A stretch of 64,000 bases of DNA, taken from NCBI GenBank assembly GCA_020845575.1, contig JADLFL010000040.1:62001-126000 (forward strand). Direction: 5' to 3'. Made by a program: the position numbers and the translations under genes. This DNA comes from Acidobacteriota bacterium (GTDB lineage: Bacteria > Acidobacteriota > Vicinamibacteria > Vicinamibacterales > Vicinamibacteraceae). This document shows positions 3,177 to 16,332 of this stretch, piece by piece. The notes below the pieces were generated by a model that was given only the letters and a program-made list of their open reading frames with translations, was not told the origin of the DNA and ran no database searches. Numbering within the stretch: the first letter of the stretch is position 1; every line of letters starts with the position of its first letter.

Positions 3177-4994
3177 TCAGTCGAGGTGCCACTGGCGGGC
3201 GATGTCGCGTCTGACCCACAGCTCGTACGGCTGGCCGTATCGTCGTCCGAGGCTCTCGCGTCGCCACAGGAAGCGCCAGAGCGCGCCGGGATCGGGGCGC
3301 GACAGCCACGGCAGCCATGTGCCCCACGTGGTGAAGCGCACTTCGGTGGGCAGGTGCGTATCGGCGAGTGACGCATGCGTCCCCGCGGGCGACGTTCGCC
3401 GCGCCGGCACGAACACGAATGGCAATGTCTTGCGATCGCCGGCATCGACTGCCTGCACCGCCCCGTCGAGCGCCCGCAGGTACCACCGCGCGGGCCATGC
3501 TGCCGATTTCATCACGCCGATGCACGGCTGCCCCCGCGAGACCAGCGTCGGACAGTCGCGCGCGAGGCGCGCCATCAGCGCATGTGTCTCCGCGGCGTAC
3601 TCCATCTGCACGAGTGGTTCGGCGGGATCGCTGCGCGTCCAGGTCGTTGCGCACACGGCACCCCAGACGGTGACGCTGCCAAGGGCCACGAGGCAGAGAC
3701 GCCATCCGATGCGCAGACGTGGCCATGCCCCGGCAAGCGCCGGTGCGGCCAGCATCATCCACGGCAGTGCGACGTGGACCGACAGCCACGGGACCTTCTC
3801 ACCGGCATAGGCATAGAGCAGCGTCTGGGTGAGAGCCAGCCATGTCCACCACGCCCCGGCCTCGTCATCGACGCGCACGCGTGCCCGCGCGGCCCACCAG
3901 AGCAGGACGACCAACAGCGGCAGCAGCGCGAGGTGCGCAGGATGTGCGTGGGTGATGCGGTACACGGTGTCGCGGACGGGCCATGCCGCGATGCCGATCG
4001 CCACGCCGGCGATCGAGGCGAGCGTCGCGTCACGCGCCACCGTCCGAGGTGCGGTCCACACCGATCGGCCGACGGCCAGCGCCGCGCCGGCCACGAGCAG
4101 TGGTTCGTAGAGCAGGAGCAGGGCGGCGTAGTAGTGGAAGGGACCACGCAGTCTCGGCTGCCTGTCGATCCCGATCCAGTGCGTCAGTCCGTCCACCGTC
4201 GCGGCGCGGATGGTCAGCCACGTGGCGTCCCAGCCCGACGCCGACGTCCTGTGTGCCCACCACGTCGTCACGAAGAGCGCCACGACGATCGCCACCATCG
4301 CTGCCGCGACCGTGACAATCGTGGCCCGGGCGGGTGTGGAGAGGGTAGGGCCGGCTCTCCGAGCCAGGCCGAGGTCAGGGGCCGATCGACCTTCCGTGCG
4401 ATACACCGCTGCACGAACGACCGGCCATGCGGCAAGTGCGCCCACCAGGAACAGCGCGTTCAGCTTGGTGCACCAGGCTGCGGCCAACGCGATGCCGATG
4501 ATCCACAGCGCGCGATCGACCTTCGCCGTCGACCAGTACCACCGGCCCCACGCCATGCTGGCCGTGGCCAGGAGGATGAGCGTGTCGTGTCCGTCGAAGC
4601 GCGAGTAGTACAGCCACGACGGCGATGCCACGACGAGGCCGCCGAGGACCATTGCCGAAGCGCGCCCGTGTTCGCGAGCGGTCAGTGCCACCAGGGCCAG
4701 TGCCGCGCCGATACCCGCCATCGCGGGAACGAGTCGCGCCACCCACAGGTCGCTCCCGAGCAGGCGCATGACACCCGCCTGGAGATGGTAGAGCAGCGGG
4801 CCGTGATAGACCGGCGAGGCGCGATACCAGCCTTCGAACGCCAGCATCTCGGAGAGCCACTGGTGGGTCATCTCGTCCTGATGCGGCAGGCGGACGCCGA
4901 GACCGGCGAGTCGCGTCACGGCGAGCGCGGCCAGCACCGCGAGCAGCAGGGGCCACGTGCGCGTCGCCGTCGCGCGTGTCGACTCAACGCACAC
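3177..4994 (-). CDS. TIGR03663-family GT-C (Agl23-like) membrane protein
   Basis: A polytopic membrane protein of about 605 residues. A GTG at 4994 overlaps the upstream stop by 11 bases and is the preferred start, because upstream in-frame sequence lies over the DUF2298 gene and looks like a shadow. An acidic catalytic-type motif in the first periplasmic loop (LPHQDEMTHQWLSEML) and the segment YHGPLLYHLQAG, followed by about ten membrane helices, match the TIGR03663/ArnT-PMT-like GT-C family. These enzymes transfer sugars from polyprenyl-phosphate donors. A dispersed hairpin repeat (4344-4370) is embedded in frame and encodes LARRAGPTL in a loop. It is the last gene of the minus-strand unit with DUF2298 and the peptide gene. 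The acceptor is unknown. Confidence 0.75.
   Translation of the reverse strand: MCVESTRATATRTWPLLLAVLAALAVTRLAGLGVRLPHQDEMTHQWLSEMLAFEGWYRASPVYHGPLLYHLQAGVMRLLGSDLWVARLVPAMAGIGAALALVALTAREHGRASAMVLGGLVVASPSWLYYSRFDGHDTLILLATASMAWGRWYWSTAKVDRALWIIGIALAAAWCTKLNALFLVGALAAWPVVRAAVYRTEGRSAPDLGLARRAGPTLSTPARATIVTVAAAMVAIVVALFVTTWWAHRTSASGWDATWLTIRAATVDGLTHWIGIDRQPRLRGPFHYYAALLLLYEPLLVAGAALAVGRSVWTAPRTVARDATLASIAGVAIGIAAWPVRDTVYRITHAHPAHLALLPLLVVLLWWAARARVRVDDEAGAWWTWLALTQTLLYAYAGEKVPWLSVHVALPWMMLAAPALAGAWPRLRIGWRLCLVALGSVTVWGAVCATTWTRSDPAEPLVQMEYAAETHALMARLARDCPTLVSRGQPCIGVMKSAAWPARWYLRALDGAVQAVDAGDRKTLPFVFVPARRTSPAGTHASLADTHLPTEVRFTTWGTWLPWLSRPDPGALWRFLWRRESLGRRYGQPYELWVRRDIARQWHLD
4344..4370. repeat. 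Dispersed REP-like hairpin, copy inside GT-C gene
   Basis: The plus strand carries GGTAGGGCCGGCTCTCCGAGCC followed by AGGCC, an imperfect hairpin with arms GGCTC and GAGCC around TCC. The same unit occurs at 11709-11734 and, in inverse orientation, at 52262-52288. Here it lies inside an open reading frame without breaking it. Confidence 0.75.
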
Positions 4995-7065
4995 GCCAGA
5001 CCTCGGTGCCGTGACTGTCCACCACGCGATCGGCGACAGGCGCGAAGCGCGACGAATCGAGCCCGGGATGGTGCCGTCGCTCCGGGGCGCCGACGATGAC
5101 GAGGGTGACGCCGGCCTCTCGCACCAGACGACCCACGTCTGCCGGATCGCCTGCGTAGAGACCCGCCAGCACACGACGTCGATGCTCGAGGACCGCCCTC
5201 CAGGCCGGTCCTCGGCGCCACAAGGCCTCGTGGCCGCCCCACCCGAGCAGCGACTGACGGCCCGTCAGCGACGCGATGCGCCCGGCGTAGCTGTATGCGT
5301 CAGCAGATGCTTCCGCAATGACGGCGTCGGCCGGTTCGGTCATCCAGACATGGCGGATGGCATCGGCGTCGCCGGGATGGTGCAGCGCGATGCCGGCAAG
5401 GCCGTCGAACGTGCGCACCGGCTCTCGCCGGCTCCAGAGGATCCCGATGGTCGACAGCGCTGACAGTACGGCCACGCACGCCAGTCCACCGAGGACACAC
5501 CGTGTCACCAGCCGCGTCCGGTGCGCACCTGCCGTCCAGAGTGCCGCGACGACGGCCGGCAACGCGAGGGCCGCCAGCACCATGGCGTGCAGGTGCCATT
5601 TGAAGACCGTGTTGACGCGACGCAACTGCCAGCCGTACACGTCGTCCACCCAGACACACTCGGCGATGAGCACGAGCGACAGTGCCGACAGCGCGAACGC
5701 CGTCGGCACGCGCCCGACATGGTCGCGCGCCAGGTACACCTGTCCCATGACCAGCACGATGATCCCCCGCACGCCCCACGGTGGCCAGCACAGCGCGCAG
5801 ACGATGGCGGCGACCCACGCAAGCGCGAGGACGCGGCGCCAGTCGCCGGTCAGCAGCAGGAGCATCACCAGTGGCGCGCACCACGTGGCGAGCACCAGCG
5901 CGAGCGCGCCGGGCGGACTGCCGTCCGGTTCGACGCCCCATCGCATCGCCGGCGGATCGACCGTCATCATCACCGGCCACGCCAGCATCGTCACGACTGC
6001 CGCCGCGCACACCGTGGCTGCCACGACGTCGGCCATGGGCCAGCGCCGCATCAGCAGGGCGGTCCAGAGCACGGCAACCAGCATCGGCAGGACGTCCCAC
6101 GTCGACGTGAGCGCTGACGCCGTGGCGAGCATCGCAAGCGTCACCACGACCGGTACGCGGACCATTCGATCGCGCCTGTCGTGACCGATCTCGTAGAGCC
6201 GGATCAGCAATCCGGCGATGGTCACCAGCAGCGGCAGGGCGAGGACGTGGCCGTGCAGGTCACCCCACGTCAGGCTGAACAGCGGAAACTCGTTGATGGT
6301 GCCGGGGATGACTCGTGTGGCCTCCGCCACCGACGGTGGCCGCCCCGTGGTCACCAGGGACGCCACCGGTGCCCATGAACCGGCGGCGACGATGGCCGTG
6401 ACGGCAATCCATGCGTACCTGGGGCGTACACGCGACCCGACGGACCAGGCCGCACACGCGACCTGGGCTGGCAGCGAGACCACGATCAGGTTGTAGGCGA
6501 TCCATGGTGGATGGCCGGCGAGCGCAGCGACCGCGGCCCACCAGGCGTGACCGGCATGGTGGTAGTTGACGAAGTATCCCGCGAGCCATGGATCGCCGGG
6601 GGGAATGCGTGCCTGACCGAGCACGGCCGCCAGCAGCGCGTGATCCATCGGGCGTTCGGCCCCGATGATGGTGGGCGACCACGCGCGGACGCACGCGGCG
6701 ATCCCGAGTGTGAGGAGAAACAGCGCGTCGACGCGCAGACATGTCCGCATCGACGGCCACGCGGCGTCACGTGTCTGCCATGTCGTCAGCGTGGCCGCGA
6801 GTGCCAGCAGGCCCGACACGATGACCGCGGTGCGGCCATCGACTCGCGCACCCATGCCGGCGGCGACCCAGATCCCGGCACCGAGCAGGAACGGACCGAG
6901 GACTTTGGCGAGGCCATAGCCCTGGTCGACCCACGCGCGTAGCAATGGGCGAACCAGCAGGAACCCGGCGAGGCCGAGCAGCCACAGGATGACCGCCCAT
7001 GACGCGAGTGCCACCAGGGTCGCGTCGTGCGCCGGGAGAACGTTGACGGCCGCCATGGCGGCCAT
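4984..7065 (-). CDS. DUF2298 (YYY family) polytopic membrane protein
   Basis: About 693 residues with many hydrophobic segments, likely more than a dozen helices. The block ERPMDHALLAAVLGQ, then PPGDPWLAGYFVNYHHAGHA, is the hallmark of the DUF2298/chlor_Arch_YYY family, which resembles GT-C glycosyltransferases and is often found next to TIGR03663 proteins, as here. The function is not established; a role in polyprenyl-sugar transfer across the membrane is an inference. The start is ATG 7065 or the GTG just before it at 7068, which begins one base after the stop of the peptide gene, so translation is probably coupled. Its stop overlaps the GT-C start. Confidence 0.8.
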   Translation of the reverse strand: MAAMAAVNVLPAHDATLVALASWAVILWLLGLAGFLLVRPLLRAWVDQGYGLAKVLGPFLLGAGIWVAAGMGARVDGRTAVIVSGLLALAATLTTWQTRDAAWPSMRTCLRVDALFLLTLGIAACVRAWSPTIIGAERPMDHALLAAVLGQARIPPGDPWLAGYFVNYHHAGHAWWAAVAALAGHPPWIAYNLIVVSLPAQVACAAWSVGSRVRPRYAWIAVTAIVAAGSWAPVASLVTTGRPPSVAEATRVIPGTINEFPLFSLTWGDLHGHVLALPLLVTIAGLLIRLYEIGHDRRDRMVRVPVVVTLAMLATASALTSTWDVLPMLVAVLWTALLMRRWPMADVVAATVCAAAVVTMLAWPVMMTVDPPAMRWGVEPDGSPPGALALVLATWCAPLVMLLLLTGDWRRVLALAWVAAIVCALCWPPWGVRGIIVLVMGQVYLARDHVGRVPTAFALSALSLVLIAECVWVDDVYGWQLRRVNTVFKWHLHAMVLAALALPAVVAALWTAGAHRTRLVTRCVLGGLACVAVLSALSTIGILWSRREPVRTFDGLAGIALHHPGDADAIRHVWMTEPADAVIAEASADAYSYAGRIASLTGRQSLLGWGGHEALWRRGPAWRAVLEHRRRVLAGLYAGDPADVGRLVREAGVTLVIVGAPERRHHPGLDSSRFAPVADRVVDSHGTEVWRVR

Positions 7066-7069
7066 CACG

Positions 7070-7207
7070 CTAGAACTCGTCGAACTCGGTGAGTTGCGAC
7101 CCGGGCACTGTCGTCGGGCCCTGACGTGTCATGGGCGCGACTTTGCCCTGCTCGACGAGACGGGGTGCGACATAGGGCTTACGGACGGTGGCAGTCTGAT
7201 TCGACAT
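7070..7207 (-). CDS. 45-residue peptide with lasso-type RiPP leader
   Basis: The start is fixed by a strong ribosome site AGAAGGA eight bases before ATG 7207; a longer in-frame extension to 7309 lacks such a site. The peptide reads MSNQTATVRKPYVAPRLVEQ, then GKVAPMTRQ, then GPTTVPGSQLTEFDEF. It carries every position of the lasso-peptide leader signature Y-x2-P-x-L-x3-G-x5-T-x: Y12, P15, L17, G21, T27. These leaders are bound by PqqD-like recognition domains, and such a gene lies at 11177. By analogy the leader would end at residue 28, leaving a 17-residue core starting with Gln29 and ending in EFDEF. That core has no Asp/Glu at core position 7, 8 or 9, so a classical lasso ring is unlikely. 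It sits between a kinase-like gene and DUF2298. Confidence 0.75.
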   Translation of the reverse strand: MSNQTATVRKPYVAPRLVEQGKVAPMTRQGPTTVPGSQLTEFDEF

Positions 7208-7275
7208 CACGAATGTCCTTCTGCGGAAGCGGGCGATTCGCCCGTAAGCATAGACAAGCTCTGCCGGGCTGTCAC
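7208..7275 (-). promoter_or_regulatory. Putative promoter, hairpin and RBS before the peptide gene
   Basis: On the minus strand GTGACA (7270-7275) is followed after exactly 17 bases by TATGCT (7247-7252), a good sigma-70-like pair. The near-palindrome GGGCGATTCGCCC (7231-7243, arms of six around one base) lies where transcription would begin. AGAAGGA then precedes ATG 7207. Together these suggest that the peptide can be transcribed separately from the upstream kinase-like gene. Judged by eye only. Confidence 0.45.
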
Positions 7276-7305: not shown

Positions 7306-8205
7306 TCACCGTACATTCCGAGCGTAGTCGGCCAGGATGCTTACGGCGGACACCAGACTGTCAGACCCCGATGGGCGAGCCAGGCGGGCCACCGGGTGGC
7401 GCTCCGCAAGTGTGGCGCACTGGCGCAGCGCCGCGGCGGCGTGTGCCGGCCCGAACGCCGTGCGACAGAACGCGTGCTCGACGAGCAGCAGGGCAGCCTC
7501 GACGGGTGCAACGCGATCGAGGGACAGCGACTCGCCCCAGGTCAGCGCGACGCACCCGCCAAGAGGCCGTCGATCGTGCGACGAGCAATTGACAGCGGTC
7601 GCGTGGACGGACTTGTCGGAGGATGTCCATCGTGGTGCCGTGCCGAGCGAGACGAGGGGCGCCGTTGCGAGACGAACGAGGGCCGCGACCGGTCGTACGA
7701 GCACCTCGCCGTCATCGGTGCAGTCGACCACTGCGAGATCGTCGGACAGCACGGCATGACCTGCTACCGCGCAGGCGGCCGCCGTCGTCGACTTGCCCAT
7801 GCCGGAATCACCGAGCAGCACCACCGCTCGATCGTCGACCGCGATGACAGCGCCGTGCAGCACGAGGTGTCCCTGCTGCATGAGTGCGAGCGCCAGTGCC
7901 GGGCCGAGCACCTGCTGCGACACATCGCCGTCGCTGACCCCGGCCTCGGGCCAGGCGATCACGCGGCATCCGTGTTCGACGATGAACCGGCCGACACCTG
8001 GCGCGGCGAATCGTACGCGACTGGAGTCGGCGGTGCGGCCTGCACCGTCGGCCGGACATGGCAGTCCCAGACGCCAGCCGTCTTCGACGACGAGCGTCGC
8101 GGCGGCGGTGGTTGGTGACGCGAGCGCGGCTTCCGGCAGGACGAAGTCGGAGATGATGTTCAGCCCGGCCAGATGGTACCGGTGGGGAGACGCGTGCGCG
8201 GTCAC
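7306..8205 (-). CDS. HPr kinase-like protein (HprK-related P-loop kinase)
   Basis: 299 residues from a GTG start. The N-terminal half is not HPr-kinase-like in detail. The C-terminal half has HLVLHGAVIAV, then a Walker A loop GDSGMGKST at residues 132-140, then HAVLSDDLAVVD (about 150-161), the order seen in HprK and in kinases of lasso-peptide clusters that phosphorylate precursor peptides. The gene lies 98 bases upstream of the lasso-leader peptide on the same strand and is divergent from the FAD enzyme gene across 66 bases. In known systems the kinase modifies a C-terminal Ser; the peptide here ends in Phe, so the target residue is open. Family assignment rests on the P-loop/SDD pattern and context. 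Confidence 0.75.
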   Translation of the reverse strand: MTAHASPHRYHLAGLNIISDFVLPEAALASPTTAAATLVVEDGWRLGLPCPADGAGRTADSSRVRFAAPGVGRFIVEHGCRVIAWPEAGVSDGDVSQQVLGPALALALMQQGHLVLHGAVIAVDDRAVVLLGDSGMGKSTTAAACAVAGHAVLSDDLAVVDCTDDGEVLVRPVAALVRLATAPLVSLGTAPRWTSSDKSVHATAVNCSSHDRRPLGGCVALTWGESLSLDRVAPVEAALLLVEHAFCRTAFGPAHAAAALRQCATLAERHPVARLARPSGSDSLVSAVSILADYARNVR

Positions 8206-8271: not shown

Positions 8272-9666
8272 GTGCGTACCTCTCCACCAGCGCGTGAACG
8301 CCACTCCGTCGTAGGACGCCTTGTCGTCATCGGCGCCGGACCGACGGGACTCGGCGCGGCGCTCGCCTGCATCGAGCACGGCCACCCGGATGTCGTGGTG
8401 TTCGAGGCCGAGGATGGTCCCGGTGGGCTGGCCGGCAGCGTGATCGATGACGAGGGCTTCACGTGGGACCTCGGCGGTCACGTGCAGTTCAGTCATTACG
8501 AGCGCTACGACCGACTGCTCGATCGCGCGCTGGGCGACGCCTGGCTGCACCACACGCGAACCGCCGCCATCCGTGTGCTCGGCCACGACGTGCCGTATCC
8601 GTTCCAGCATCATCTCGAGGCGCTGCCTCCGCGCGAGCGTCAGTGGGCCGCCGAGACGCTGGCCGCTGCGACAGGCAGACCCGTCGACGACAGCTTCGCC
8701 GCGTGGATGGACGCGACCTTCGGTGAAGGGATCTGCGCCCTGTTCCTCAGACCGTACAACCGGAAGGTCTGGCAGCATCCCCTCGAGGACATGAGTGCGG
8801 CCTGGCTCGGGGAACGCGTGGCGCGACCCCGCGCGGAGGATGACGCGCCGCGTTCGGACTGGGGACCCAACGCCACGTTCCGCTATCCCGTACGCGGCGG
8901 GACCGGTGCCATCTGGAAGGGAGTAGCCCGGCTGTTGCCGGACACCATCGTGCGCACCGGATGTCGCGTCGTGGGTATCGATCCCGAGGGCCGGCGGATC
9001 ACGCTTGCCGATGGGGAAGTCGTACCTTACGACACGCTGCTCGGCACGATGCCGCTCGATGCGCTCGTCGCCTGCCTGCCAGACTCGTCGCCAGCGGTGA
9101 AGGCCGCAGCGGCGCGACTCGTGGCCAACACCGTGGAACTGGTCGGCGTGGGCGTGGGTCTGCCCGCCGACGAGGCGATGCGCCGCCGTACCTGGATGTA
9201 TTTCCCGGAGGCCGACAGTCCCTACTATCGCGTGACGGTGTTGTCCAACTACGCCGCGTCCAACGCGCCCGACGCCGCTTCGTACTCCCTGCTGACCGAG
9301 AGCGCACATCCTCGTGCCGAGCGTGTGGATCGCGATGCGTTGGTCGAGGCGACATGCCGCGCGCTCGAGCGAGACGGGTTGCTGCCGCGCGGTGCGCCGA
9401 TCCGATCCCTGTGGCACCGCACGCTGGCGCACGGGTATCCCGTGCCGACGCGCGGGCGTGACGATGCACTCGCCACGCTCCACGCGGCCCTCGCGCCGTT
9501 CGGGATCCATACTCGCGGGCGCTTCGGCGGATGGAAGTACGAAGTCTCGAACCAGGACCACAGTCTCATGCAGGGGATGGAGTTCGTCGAACACTGGCTG
9601 CACGGTGTGCCGGAGATGACGTACCACAGCCCCGCCGACGCGAATCGCACCTACCATCGTGGCTGA
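8272..9666 (+). CDS. FAD/NAD(P)-binding oxidoreductase, UDP-galactopyranose mutase/protoporphyrinogen oxidase-like
   Basis: 464 residues, GTG start. The N-terminal Rossmann motif VVIGAGPTGLG (about residues 18-28) with an acidic strand end (VVVFEAEDGPGG) binds FAD. The block FLRPYNRKVWQHPLEDM and the later GGWKYEVSNQDHSLMQGMEF are typical of amine-oxidase-type proteins related to UDP-galactopyranose mutase that occur in glycan clusters. The reaction could be a sugar-nucleotide isomerisation or an oxidation; the sequence alone does not decide. Its end overlaps the start of the tandem GT2 gene by 8 bases, so the two are translationally coupled. Confidence 0.75.
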   Translation: MRTSPPARERHSVVGRLVVIGAGPTGLGAALACIEHGHPDVVVFEAEDGPGGLAGSVIDDEGFTWDLGGHVQFSHYERYDRLLDRALGDAWLHHTRTAAIRVLGHDVPYPFQHHLEALPPRERQWAAETLAAATGRPVDDSFAAWMDATFGEGICALFLRPYNRKVWQHPLEDMSAAWLGERVARPRAEDDAPRSDWGPNATFRYPVRGGTGAIWKGVARLLPDTIVRTGCRVVGIDPEGRRITLADGEVVPYDTLLGTMPLDALVACLPDSSPAVKAAAARLVANTVELVGVGVGLPADEAMRRRTWMYFPEADSPYYRVTVLSNYAASNAPDAASYSLLTESAHPRAERVDRDALVEATCRALERDGLLPRGAPIRSLWHRTLAHGYPVPTRGRDDALATLHAALAPFGIHTRGRFGGWKYEVSNQDHSLMQGMEFVEHWLHGVPEMTYHSPADANRTYHRG

Positions 9667-11143
9667 CCCGATCGCGATCAGCGTCGTCATTCCGGCACGC
9701 AACGAAGCCGCGGCGATCTCCGGCGTGATCGAGGACTGCCGCGCGTTCGCGCGGGCGGCGGGAATACGGCACGAGATCGTGGTCGTCGACGATGCGAGTG
9801 ACGACGAGACGGCGCGCCTGGTGGAAGAGGCTGCGCGGCATGGTGACGTTCGCCTGATACGCCAAGCCACGCGTCGCGGCATCGCCGAGACGTCGCACGC
9901 CGGGCTGCTCGCGGCCCGGCACGACGTGATCTGCTACCTGGATGGTGACGGGCAGTTCACGGCCGCGGCATTCCGACCGTTGCTCGATCGCCTGGCCGAC
10001 GCCGATCTCGTGGTCGGGTGGCGGCAGGCGCGTGTCGAACGCGGGCCGCGCACATGGGGCAGCCGTGTGTACAACGCCGCGACCCGCCTGGCGGGTGTGT
10101 CGGTTCACGACGTCAACTGCGGTTTCCGTGTGTTGCGGCGTTCCGCGTTCGCGAACGTGGCCGAGGCCGTCCAGTCGCGATCGTCGTTCTATTTCGCCGA
10201 GCTCACGCTGCTCATCCAGGCCACCGGAGGACGTGTCGTTGAAGTGACCGTCCCTCATCGGGCCCGCGTCGGTGGCCGGCCGTCGGGTGCGAGTCCATCG
10301 GTTGTCGTGAGGCAGTTCGTCGATCTCGTGCGCTACATGTGGCGGAGAGAGCGAACTGGTGAGACGCTGCGCGAGCCGCAGCCAGAGAGCACCGCCGTCG
10401 CAGGGGACGCGGCATCTCCGAGTACCGGCGCCGAGGTCGATGTGTCGCTGGTCGTGCCGGTCTACAACGAGGGCGGCACGATCGAGACATCGCTTGCAGA
10501 GTGGCTGGTTGTCCTGGCCGACAAGGGACTGCGTGCGGAATGCGTCGTCGTCGACGACGGCTCGACGGACGGGACGACTGATGTCCTGCGCGCGCTCGCC
10601 GCACGCGATCCGCGAATTCACGTACATCGTCAGGCCAACACCGGACACGGGGCCGCGCTGCTGACGGCCTATCGGCGCGCGCGTGGCCCATGGGTCGTGC
10701 AGATCGATGGCGATGACGAGATCGGCGCGTCGTCGTTCGAGGCGCTCTGGGTGGCACGCACGCCTGGTGGAATGGTGCTTGGTTGTCGTGCTGCTCGCGA
10801 ACGTGCACGCGCGCGTCGCGTTGTCTCCCGTGCAGCGGCCACGTGGTTCCGGTGGGCGACGGGCGCCACGGCGCACGACGTGAACGTGCCTTTTCGTGTG
10901 CTGCCCCGCGAACGACTGGACGAGTTCCTCTCTGTCGTGCCAGACGGGCTCGTGGCTCCGAACCTCGCCCTGAGCATCCTTGCCGGCGTTCGTGGCTGGG
11001 ATCTTCGCGAGGTACCCGTCGTCGAGCGCGCGCGCCTGACGACACGTCAGGGACTCGGTGGTCGACGGCTGTGGATGACTGTGTGTCGCGCGGCGTGCGA
11101 GAGCCTGGCCTTCCGCGTGCGCCTCGGGCGTCACTCGCCATGA
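9659..11143 (+). CDS. Fused tandem family-2 glycosyltransferase
   Basis: 494 residues, GTG start overlapping the previous stop. Two complete GT2 domains are joined: domain 1 (about residues 5-235) has VVIPARNEAA, VVVDDAS, and a DGDG metal site; domain 2 (about 262-490) has LVVPVYNEGG, VVVDDGSTDGT and DGDDE. Each has a downstream NCGFRVL or VNVPFRVL block like dolichol-phosphate/undecaprenyl-phosphate sugar synthases. No membrane helix is obvious, so it is probably cytosolic or peripheral. A plausible job is making polyprenyl-phosphate sugars for the two GT-C-like proteins transcribed divergently, an inference from family pairing. Fusion of two such domains in one chain is uncommon. PqqD follows after 33 bases. 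Confidence 0.85.
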   Translation: MADPIAISVVIPARNEAAAISGVIEDCRAFARAAGIRHEIVVVDDASDDETARLVEEAARHGDVRLIRQATRRGIAETSHAGLLAARHDVICYLDGDGQFTAAAFRPLLDRLADADLVVGWRQARVERGPRTWGSRVYNAATRLAGVSVHDVNCGFRVLRRSAFANVAEAVQSRSSFYFAELTLLIQATGGRVVEVTVPHRARVGGRPSGASPSVVVRQFVDLVRYMWRRERTGETLREPQPESTAVAGDAASPSTGAEVDVSLVVPVYNEGGTIETSLAEWLVVLADKGLRAECVVVDDGSTDGTTDVLRALAARDPRIHVHRQANTGHGAALLTAYRRARGPWVVQIDGDDEIGASSFEALWVARTPGGMVLGCRAARERARARRVVSRAAATWFRWATGATAHDVNVPFRVLPRERLDEFLSVVPDGLVAPNLALSILAGVRGWDLREVPVVERARLTTRQGLGGRRLWMTVCRAACESLAFRVRLGRHSP

Positions 11144-11176: not shown

Positions 11177-11494
11177 ATGTCAGATCTGCTGCCTTCCACC
11201 CGCTTTGCCACGCGAACCGACGTCCTCAGCTCGCGCGTCGGCGACACCGGTGTGATGCTGCTCGATCCCGCCGCGTCGATGTACCTGGGCACTCATGGGG
11301 TGGGCGCGTTGATCTGGCAACGTCTCGCGGCGGGGCCGCAGACGATGGCGCAGTTGTGCGAGGCCGTCGAGGCCGAGTACGACGTCGATGCCGAGACCTG
11401 CCGCGGCGACGTGAAGACGTTCCTCGCCGACCTGCTCGATAGGAACCTGATCGCGCGTGTGGACGATGGCGCAGTCGCATCGCGTGACGCCTGA
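11177..11494 (+). CDS. PqqD-like peptide-binding protein (RiPP recognition element)
   Basis: 105 residues. The pattern of a short beta hairpin (LSSRVGDTGVMLLDP), then GVGALIWQRLAAGPQTMAQL, then a helical pair with the EVxxFLxxLxxRxLI-like end VKTFLADLLDRNLIARV matches PqqD and the lasso B1 proteins. PqqD proteins form a winged helix-turn-helix-like fold that binds the leader of a precursor peptide and delivers it to modifying enzymes. Here the likely partner is the lasso-leader peptide at 7070-7207. It ends the plus-strand unit with the FAD enzyme and tandem GT2. No B2 protease or cyclase gene follows. Confidence 0.8.
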   Translation: MSDLLPSTRFATRTDVLSSRVGDTGVMLLDPAASMYLGTHGVGALIWQRLAAGPQTMAQLCEAVEAEYDVDAETCRGDVKTFLADLLDRNLIARVDDGAVASRDA

Positions 11495-15285: not shown

Positions 15286-15314
15286 TTGACTAGTCTGACC
15301 AGATCATCTAGCCT
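15286..15314 (+). promoter_or_regulatory. Promoter/operator of the toxin-antitoxin pair, possibly leaderless
   Basis: TTGACT (15286-15291) and TAGCCT (15309-15314) are 17 bases apart. The perfect palindrome GACTAGTC (15288-15295) and the inverted repeat TCTGACCAGA just after it overlap this promoter, as expected for autorepression by a Phd-type antitoxin. Only seven bases lie between the -10 box and ATG 15322, which suggests a leaderless or nearly leaderless transcript. Confidence 0.5.
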
Positions 15315-15321
15315 GAGCTAC

Positions 15322-15588
15322 ATGAGCGAAGAACCGGTGTGGCAGCTGCACGAGGCGAAGGCACGCTTCAGCGAAGTGTTCCGGCGCGTTCGGACCGAGG
15401 GTCCGCAGCGTGTCGTCCGGCACCGTGGCGAGGCCGTGATCATCGTCGCGGCCGAGGCGTACGAGCGGGACATGGCCCGGGCGGATCAGCCGGCATCGCT
15501 CGTCGACTTCTTCAGGGACGCGCCGACAGGCGGGCGTTCGCTGGACATCTCGCGCAAGCGTGACGCGACCAGAACCATCCGATGGTAG
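15322..15588 (+). CDS. Phd/YefM-type antitoxin
   Basis: 88 residues from ATG 15322 (a longer frame upstream runs through the promoter). The N-terminal VWQLHEAKARFSEVFRRV and the next segment, GPQRVVRHRGEAVIIVAAEAY, are the Phd/YefM DNA-binding fold; the C-terminal tail (SLVDFFRDAP) should bind the toxin. It neutralises the PIN-domain toxin whose ATG overlaps its stop by 7 bases and probably represses its own promoter through the palindromes upstream. Family and arrangement are clear; toxin binding is inferred from known Phd-toxin pairs. Confidence 0.85.
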   Translation: MSEEPVWQLHEAKARFSEVFRRVRTEGPQRVVRHRGEAVIIVAAEAYERDMARADQPASLVDFFRDAPTGGRSLDISRKRDATRTIRW

Positions 15589-16034
15589 GCGGCCAGGCGG
15601 GTTTCCTGCTCGACACCAACGTGGTGTCGGAACTCATGAAGCCCCGGCCGAGCGCGAGGGTCGTGGCGTGGGTCGCGGCGACACCGGAACCCTTGCTGTA
15701 CCTGAGCGCCATCACCATCGGAGAGGTGCGTCGCGGTATCGATCTGCTCGACGAAGCAGACCCGAGGCGGGGTGCTCTCCAGAGCTGGCTGAATCACGAC
15801 GTGCGGTTGCGGTTCGCTGGCCGCATCCTGTCGTTCGATGAGGGTGTCGCCGAACGATGGGGACAGGTCGAAGCCCTTGCAAGGAAGCGGCGTGTAACCC
15901 TGCCGACCATCGACGCGCAACTGGCGGCAACGGCCCTGCATCATGGCTTGACCTTCGTGACCCGGAACGTCACGGACGTCGTGGCCACGGGCGTGCCCGT
16001 GTTCAACCCTTGGCCGAAGCGCGACGACGCGTGA
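15582..16034 (+). CDS. PIN-domain toxin (VapC-like ribonuclease)
   Basis: 150 residues. PIN-domain toxins are Mg2+-dependent RNases that usually cut tRNA or rRNA. Acidic catalytic positions are visible: D11 in LLDTNVVSELMKP, E48 in ITIGEVRRGI, D111 in LPTIDAQLAATA, and the TRN motif (FVTRNVTDV) near the C-terminus. Length is normal for VapC. It pairs with a Phd/YefM rather than a VapB antitoxin, a common combination. It is followed on the opposite strand by a truncated Doc toxin, so this gap has collected toxin genes. Confidence 0.88.
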   Translation: MVGGQAGFLLDTNVVSELMKPRPSARVVAWVAATPEPLLYLSAITIGEVRRGIDLLDEADPRRGALQSWLNHDVRLRFAGRILSFDEGVAERWGQVEALARKRRVTLPTIDAQLAATALHHGLTFVTRNVTDVVATGVPVFNPWPKRDDA

Positions 16035-16043
16035 CGCGATCGC

Positions 16044-16332
16044 TCAGATCGCCCTCTGACCATCCGGCACCGTGTGGTCGGCGAAGAACGCTGCCGCGCC
16101 GTCCTCGCCGATCTCGCCGGCGGCAACGCCCATGGTGAACGCGTAGAGCGTGCCGTCATCGGCCGTCGACTCGTGGCCGTTCAGCAGCAGGAAGGTGACG
16201 GCGGCGACGATGGCGGTGCGCTTGTTGCCATCCACGAACGCGTGATTCCGCGCGAGGCCGAACATGTACGCGGCGGCCAGTTCATGCACGGTTGGCGTGC
16301 CGTAGTGAGCCTTCTGCTCCGGGCGAGCGAGT
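16044..16332 (-). pseudogene. 5'-truncated Doc (Fic-fold) toxin remnant
   Basis: The frame carries the Fic/Doc core HAFVDGNKRTA and a normal Doc C-terminus (FLLLNGHES to the stop at 16044). The matching upstream part begins only at STELARPEQKAHYGTPTVHE, immediately preceded by an in-frame stop that lies across the end of the aldehyde dehydrogenase gene. The first 40 or so residues of a usual Doc, including the conserved Glu/Gly-rich N-terminus, are absent, and no Phd gene precedes it. Doc phosphorylates EF-Tu in known systems; here the protein is probably dead, although a shorter product could start at the GTG at 16289. Confidence 0.75.

Follow-up and report, generated by a model that had tools for sequence, protein, structure and literature searches.

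Genomic neighbourhood of the precursor gene

The window that we analysed comprises 64,000 nucleotides from a genome of the Acidobacteriota (G000), and the coordinates below refer to that whole stretch unless another contig or locus is named. The following features were recognised around the gene under study:

3177-5174, minus strand: Agl23-type (TIGR03663, PMT_2) membrane protein, GT-C-like, by family match
4984-7068, minus strand: DUF2298 / chlor_Arch_YYY membrane protein, GT-C-like, by family match and a low-confidence structure model
7070-7207, minus strand: precursor peptide gene of 45 aa, by its ORF translation (MSNQTATVRKPYVAPRLVEQGKVAPMTRQGPTTVPGSQLTEFDEF, then a stop), its homologues and its leader register
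7216-7222, minus strand: Shine-Dalgarno-like AGAAGGA, 8 nt upstream of the precursor ATG, by sequence
7306-8205, minus strand: HprK-like peptide kinase of 299 aa, by its His, GxxGxGKS and Asp-Asp residues (motif from PMC10368454)
8272-9666, plus strand: relative of UDP-galactopyranose mutase (UGM), eukaryotic type, by similarity to solved mutases
9659-11143, plus strand: double GT2 glycosyltransferase, by family match and solved relatives
11177-11494, plus strand: PqqD-type RiPP recognition element (RRE), relative of lasso B1 proteins, by family match and solved relatives

The minus-strand genes thus line up as kinase, precursor, DUF2298 protein and Agl23-type protein, with the flavoenzyme (the UGM relative), the double GT2 and the PqqD-type protein encoded divergently. 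The precursor ORF proved to be exactly that of the original prediction, with the residues it had named in place. Residues 1-28 constitute a lasso-type leader and residues 29-45, QGPTTVPGSQLTEFDEF, the predicted core: Y12, P15, L17, G21 and T27 occupy lasso-leader positions (YxxPxL; T at -2), and since the spacing of 15 between Y12 and T27 equals that between Y(-17) and T(-2) in the lasso leader register (Y-17, P-14, L-12, T-2; PMC10368454), the core is predicted to start at Q29. A PqqD-type B1 partner is encoded at the same locus. The AGAAGGA motif, the coding-type periodicity of the GC content (0.63/0.48/0.76 at the three codon positions) and the stop codon, located 1 nt ahead of the annotated GTG start of the DUF2298 gene, together argue that the ORF is more than accidental. 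It had no match among the NCBIfam models; one of its homologues scored above the cut-off of NF033521 (23.8 vs 19 bits).

The structure model of the kinase has the HprK/PEPCK fold, and the protein keeps the catalytic residues listed for lasso-peptide kinases (PMC10368454). The closest relative of the PqqD protein among solved structures was the lasso protein TbiB1. The first half of the double GT2 resembles polyprenyl-phosphate sugar synthases (ArnC and the dolichol-phosphate mannose synthase DPM1). Profile names suggested an amine or protoporphyrinogen oxidase for the flavoenzyme, an assignment that we rejected because its best solved relatives are UDP-galactopyranose mutases (E about 1e-134). 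The AlphaFold model of the DUF2298 protein is of low confidence (mean pLDDT 51), so that its GT-C matches, to AftA and STT3, can be taken as supporting only. No B2 peptidase gene was found at the window locus. Further along, inspection by eye picked out three possible toxin-antitoxin genes. The ORF at 15286-15588 resembles a Phd antitoxin, that at 15582-16034 a PIN-domain toxin, and that at 16044-16289 (minus strand), with the motif HAFVDGNKRT, a Doc/Fic protein.

A small family of precursors and its second locus

A precursor profile was run over 162 genomes of the order and recovered six strong family members (66-81 bits), two in each of three genomes (G000, G042 and G011); the next-best matches (≤36 bits) were ordinary lasso-type precursors of other clusters. 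Precursors with the same leader in a similar gene order occur in two genera besides that of the window. In the alignment of the six, Y, P, G, T and one core Pro are invariant, the -1 residue after T is Q, R or E, core position 1 is Q in five, and the invariant Pro is followed by Ser or Thr in 5/6; the tail of several members ends in an acidic, aromatic motif. We found no report of this acidobacterial family in the open-access literature, to which the search was confined.

A search of the window's own genome located its sole B2 on another contig (C35), together with a second kinase, a second PqqD protein of the lasso type (the genome has two, one at each locus), a nucleotidyltransferase (NTP_transf_5) and a second precursor, which ends in RMTQ|QRPSAASEF and requires a TTG start. 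This B2 scored above the curated cut-off for lasso B2 proteins (NF033537), but is encoded away from the window locus. Beyond the two family members no further lasso-type precursor was found in the genome. The same split was seen in G042, with kinase, precursor, DUF2298 and UGM on one contig and kinase, precursor, PqqD, B2 and nucleotidyltransferase on another. G011 carries the whole cassette at one place: two tandem precursors, kinase, PqqD, B2, nucleotidyltransferase, Agl23, DUF2298 and UGM. An HprK-like kinase, a PqqD-type RRE and a lasso-type B2 were therefore present in each of the three genomes.

Ring acceptor and cyclase

Translation confirmed that core positions 7-9 are P, G and S, that acidic residues occur at core 13, 15 and 16 only, and that Ser37, Thr32, Thr33 and Thr40 lie in the core as potential sites of modification. 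The window core thus has no Asp or Glu where a lasso ring would close. As a control, 33 lasso-type precursors from the order and the phylum were numbered in the same way, from T/I/V(-2): 25 have Asp/Glu at core 7-9, vs one of the six family members (two-sided Fisher p = 0.011, for sequences that are not independent). Given the eight exceptions, the T(-2) register is good enough for the acceptor argument, yet not absolute. The original prediction would have been undermined by homologues with an acceptor at these positions or by a processing site elsewhere that restores the ring geometry. No such site was found, as all six precursors align with T at -2, and five of them have no acceptor. The exception is the C35 precursor, with Glu8 in a core of nine residues (QRPSAASEF) and no cyclase gene nearby; with only one residue after the Glu, this core is unlikely to thread.

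In four of the eight exceptions the kinase falls in the group nearest to the window clade, and the precursor is encoded beside an Asn synthetase, which for the one tested (L265) scored above the lasso-cyclase cut-off. These precursors of other Acidobacteriota, coded as one family (L258 9301-9468, plus strand; L259 10796-11056, L261 10351-10617 and L265 2651-2788, minus strand), have W-type leaders and their first acidic core residues at 11-17, and their products have either unusually large rings or are of another kind. Their Asn synthetases are a point against a cyclase-free reading of the window system, and, as an acceptor at 7-9 is missing from some cyclase-bearing relatives too, gene content carries more weight than the core taken by itself. 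None of the five loci of the clade (in G000, G042 and G011) contains a lasso cyclase, i.e. an Asn-synthetase homologue, and this missing cyclase is a stronger argument for another product than the core. The claim that a lasso-like leader precedes a non-lasso product is hence supported by both the homologues and their clusters.

These relatives also speak for a product that is still cyclised, as a lasso or a simple macrolactam, through an unusually large ring from Gln29 to Glu41, Asp43 or Glu44, with the cyclase gene lying at another place in the genome. We consider this very unlikely: besides the cyclase-free loci, the tail behind a ring of 13-16 residues would be 1-4 residues long in the window peptide, a single residue follows the Glu of the C35 precursor, and the four full-length Asn synthetases of G000, all on contigs other than those of the precursor loci, have the N-terminal MCG or LCG that carries the glutaminase Cys of ordinary Asn synthetases and look like glutamine-hydrolysing enzymes.

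Other kinase clusters of the phylum have no obvious Asn synthetase (L260, L263, L264 and L270) and were considered as further linear systems. L264 and L270 were rejected, because a gene with an MSGIFG/VSGIYG-type N-terminus looks like a cyclase that the motif scan had missed; at L260 and L263 kinase and B2 were matched, but no precursor could be recognised. A further point against the cyclase-free reading is a pair of unusual Asn-synthase-like genes on another contig of G042 (C227; L251, L253). These carry the motif SGGLDSR, and no N-terminal MCG was found in the open frame; the contig yielded no lasso-type precursor.

Co-inheritance of the cassette

The trees group together the five kinases of the clade loci (SH-aLRT 93), the four PqqD proteins (84) and the three B2 proteins (76/88), supports that are moderate. 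In the separate trees of UGM, DUF2298 and Agl23 the proteins from the three loci make up a starred clade, the window sequence pairing with that of G042 and G011 standing outside, although by their family codes G042 and G011 belong together and the window's genome to a different family. A DUF2298 protein scored above the cut-off in six of the 162 genomes of the order, including all three precursor genomes, where its gene adjoins the precursor each time (Fisher p = 2.9e-5, not corrected for kinship). The other four genomes of the window's genus have no match to the kinase, the precursor or DUF2298. The congruent branching and the patchy occurrence suggest that the peptide cassette probably moved or persisted as a unit.

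The rarity of the family, together with the absence of both B2 and cyclase from the window locus, could be read as decay, the cyclase and peptidase of a former lasso cluster having been lost. That the locus is such a remnant seems highly improbable, as the ORFs, the ribosome-binding site and the kinase residues are intact, the core pattern is common to three genera, B2 was kept in each of the three genomes, G011 even has its precursors in tandem, and the inheritance of the cassette is congruent.

The tight coupling to DUF2298 and Agl23 could also indicate that the peptide is an uncut regulator or protein partner of the glycan enzymes, controlled for instance by phosphorylation, and not secreted. 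The lack of B2 at the window locus, the acidic, aromatic tails and the fact that inspection of the ORFs near the window and C35 loci revealed no exporter agree with such a role. We nevertheless hold it to be unlikely, since B2 occurs in all three genomes, in G011 within the same locus, and the T(-2) ahead of the predicted cleavage site is invariant.

Comparison with known systems

The system appears to work most like the linear polyphosphorylated peptides (LPP; 2026) of the Bacillota. The lpp clusters (PMC13381572) combine, as in the window's genome, an HprK-like kinase, a discrete RRE that reads a YxxP leader and an NTP transferase (here at the C35 locus) with the absence of a cyclase, and they often occur near polysaccharide genes, as the window locus lies beside glycan genes. 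There are, however, several differences: the host is an acidobacterium; the leader matches the LPP motif YxxPxVLxHQxIxFETxxS only in part; a lasso-type B2 is found instead of the signal-peptidase-like LppS; and lpp clusters encode an MsbA-like exporter, while neither LppS-like nor MsbA-like genes were recognised by inspection of the ORFs around both loci. In LPP the phosphates are on Ser3, whereas the window peptide has Pro at core position 3, followed by Thr4 and Thr5. The phosphorylated lasso peptides paeninodin, pseudomycoidin and Bsf (PMC9266682, PMC10368454) share the YxxPxL and T(-2) leader, the kinase, the PqqD B1 and the B2, and some of their clusters also carry a nucleotidyltransferase; these systems have a cyclase and an Asp/Glu at the ring position, and the window system has neither.

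Several of the activities in question have been reported: BsfK, aided by its PqqD protein, phosphorylates core Ser3, after which the cognate B2 releases the core (PMC10368454), LppK phosphorylates a linear peptide in a cyclase-free system (PMC13381572), the modified site in BsfA and LppA being core position 3 (PMC10368454, PMC13381572), and PsmN puts hexoses on phosphorylated Ser (reviewed in PMC9266682).

Proposed product and mechanism

We consider it probable, by analogy to these systems, that the product of the window gene is processed by cyclase-free lasso-type machinery, under the guidance of its leader, to a linear phosphopeptide. The linearity of the product is the firmest part of this proposal and, judged from core and gene content, likely; phosphorylation of the peptide, for which we rely on the described kinases, is nearly as likely, and glycosylation is possible but somewhat doubtful. 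From the sequence, the homologues, the gene content, the cyclase-free clusters and the co-inheritance we infer the chemical steps that follow. The YxxPxL leader would be bound by the PqqD-type RRE, and the HprK-like kinase would phosphorylate a Ser or Thr near the start of the core, with Thr32 and Thr33, which follow the conserved Pro, as the most likely sites. The B2 cysteine peptidase encoded on C35 would then cleave after residue 28, in trans, as is assumed because B2 is missing from the window locus. As the cluster lacks a cyclase and the core an acceptor that could be used, no macrolactam would be formed and the peptide would stay linear; the new N-terminal Gln could, from general chemistry, close to pyroglutamate, in which case the amine needed for a ring would be gone. 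The Pro/Ser/Thr-rich core may finally be glycosylated; for this step the C35 nucleotidyltransferase is a candidate, as are the UGM, the GT2 and the two GT-C-like proteins of the window locus. The comparison is least secure where the phosphorylated residue (Thr4/5 vs Ser3) and the sugar step are concerned.

If the proposal is true, cyclase-free lasso machinery making linear phosphopeptides is not confined to the Bacillota and can retain the lasso B2 peptidase, and such peptides will be misassigned by genome mining wherever the leader alone decides on the name 'lasso'. Linear phosphopeptides themselves are known from the Bacillota; new here is, most likely, an acidobacterial branch of lasso-type machinery without cyclase and with B2.

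Association with glycan genes

The association with UDP-galactopyranose mutase and GT-C genes offers a concrete candidate for the purpose of such peptides. The lasso-type leader, RRE, kinase and peptidase could prepare the core, while UGM and the lipid-phosphate-sugar synthase could feed the GT-C enzymes; these would glycosylate the phosphorylated linear core, so that the RiPP-like peptide would be the acceptor of a membrane-made, galactofuranose-containing glycan. We regard this extension of the proposal as rather unlikely. The mutase and the membrane proteins (UGM, DUF2298, Agl23) were co-inherited with the peptide, but similar glycan genes occur without it in three other genomes of the order, and may therefore serve another purpose. 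A search of the contigs for UGM yielded one record with the peptide (L086, which matches the G042 contig), the remaining loci being without it. Among the glycan loci, L212 contains all four kinds of genes (UGM, DUF2298, Agl23 and GT2) and L210 and L211 contain subsets; none has a precursor, kinase or RRE match, and the peptide-linked copies of the glycan genes form their own clade. In the window's own genome a second, much longer DUF2298 protein of 1327 aa with a weak PMT match was observed (contig C16, L214 6855-10838), the gene of which adjoins sugar-related genes, without peptide genes.
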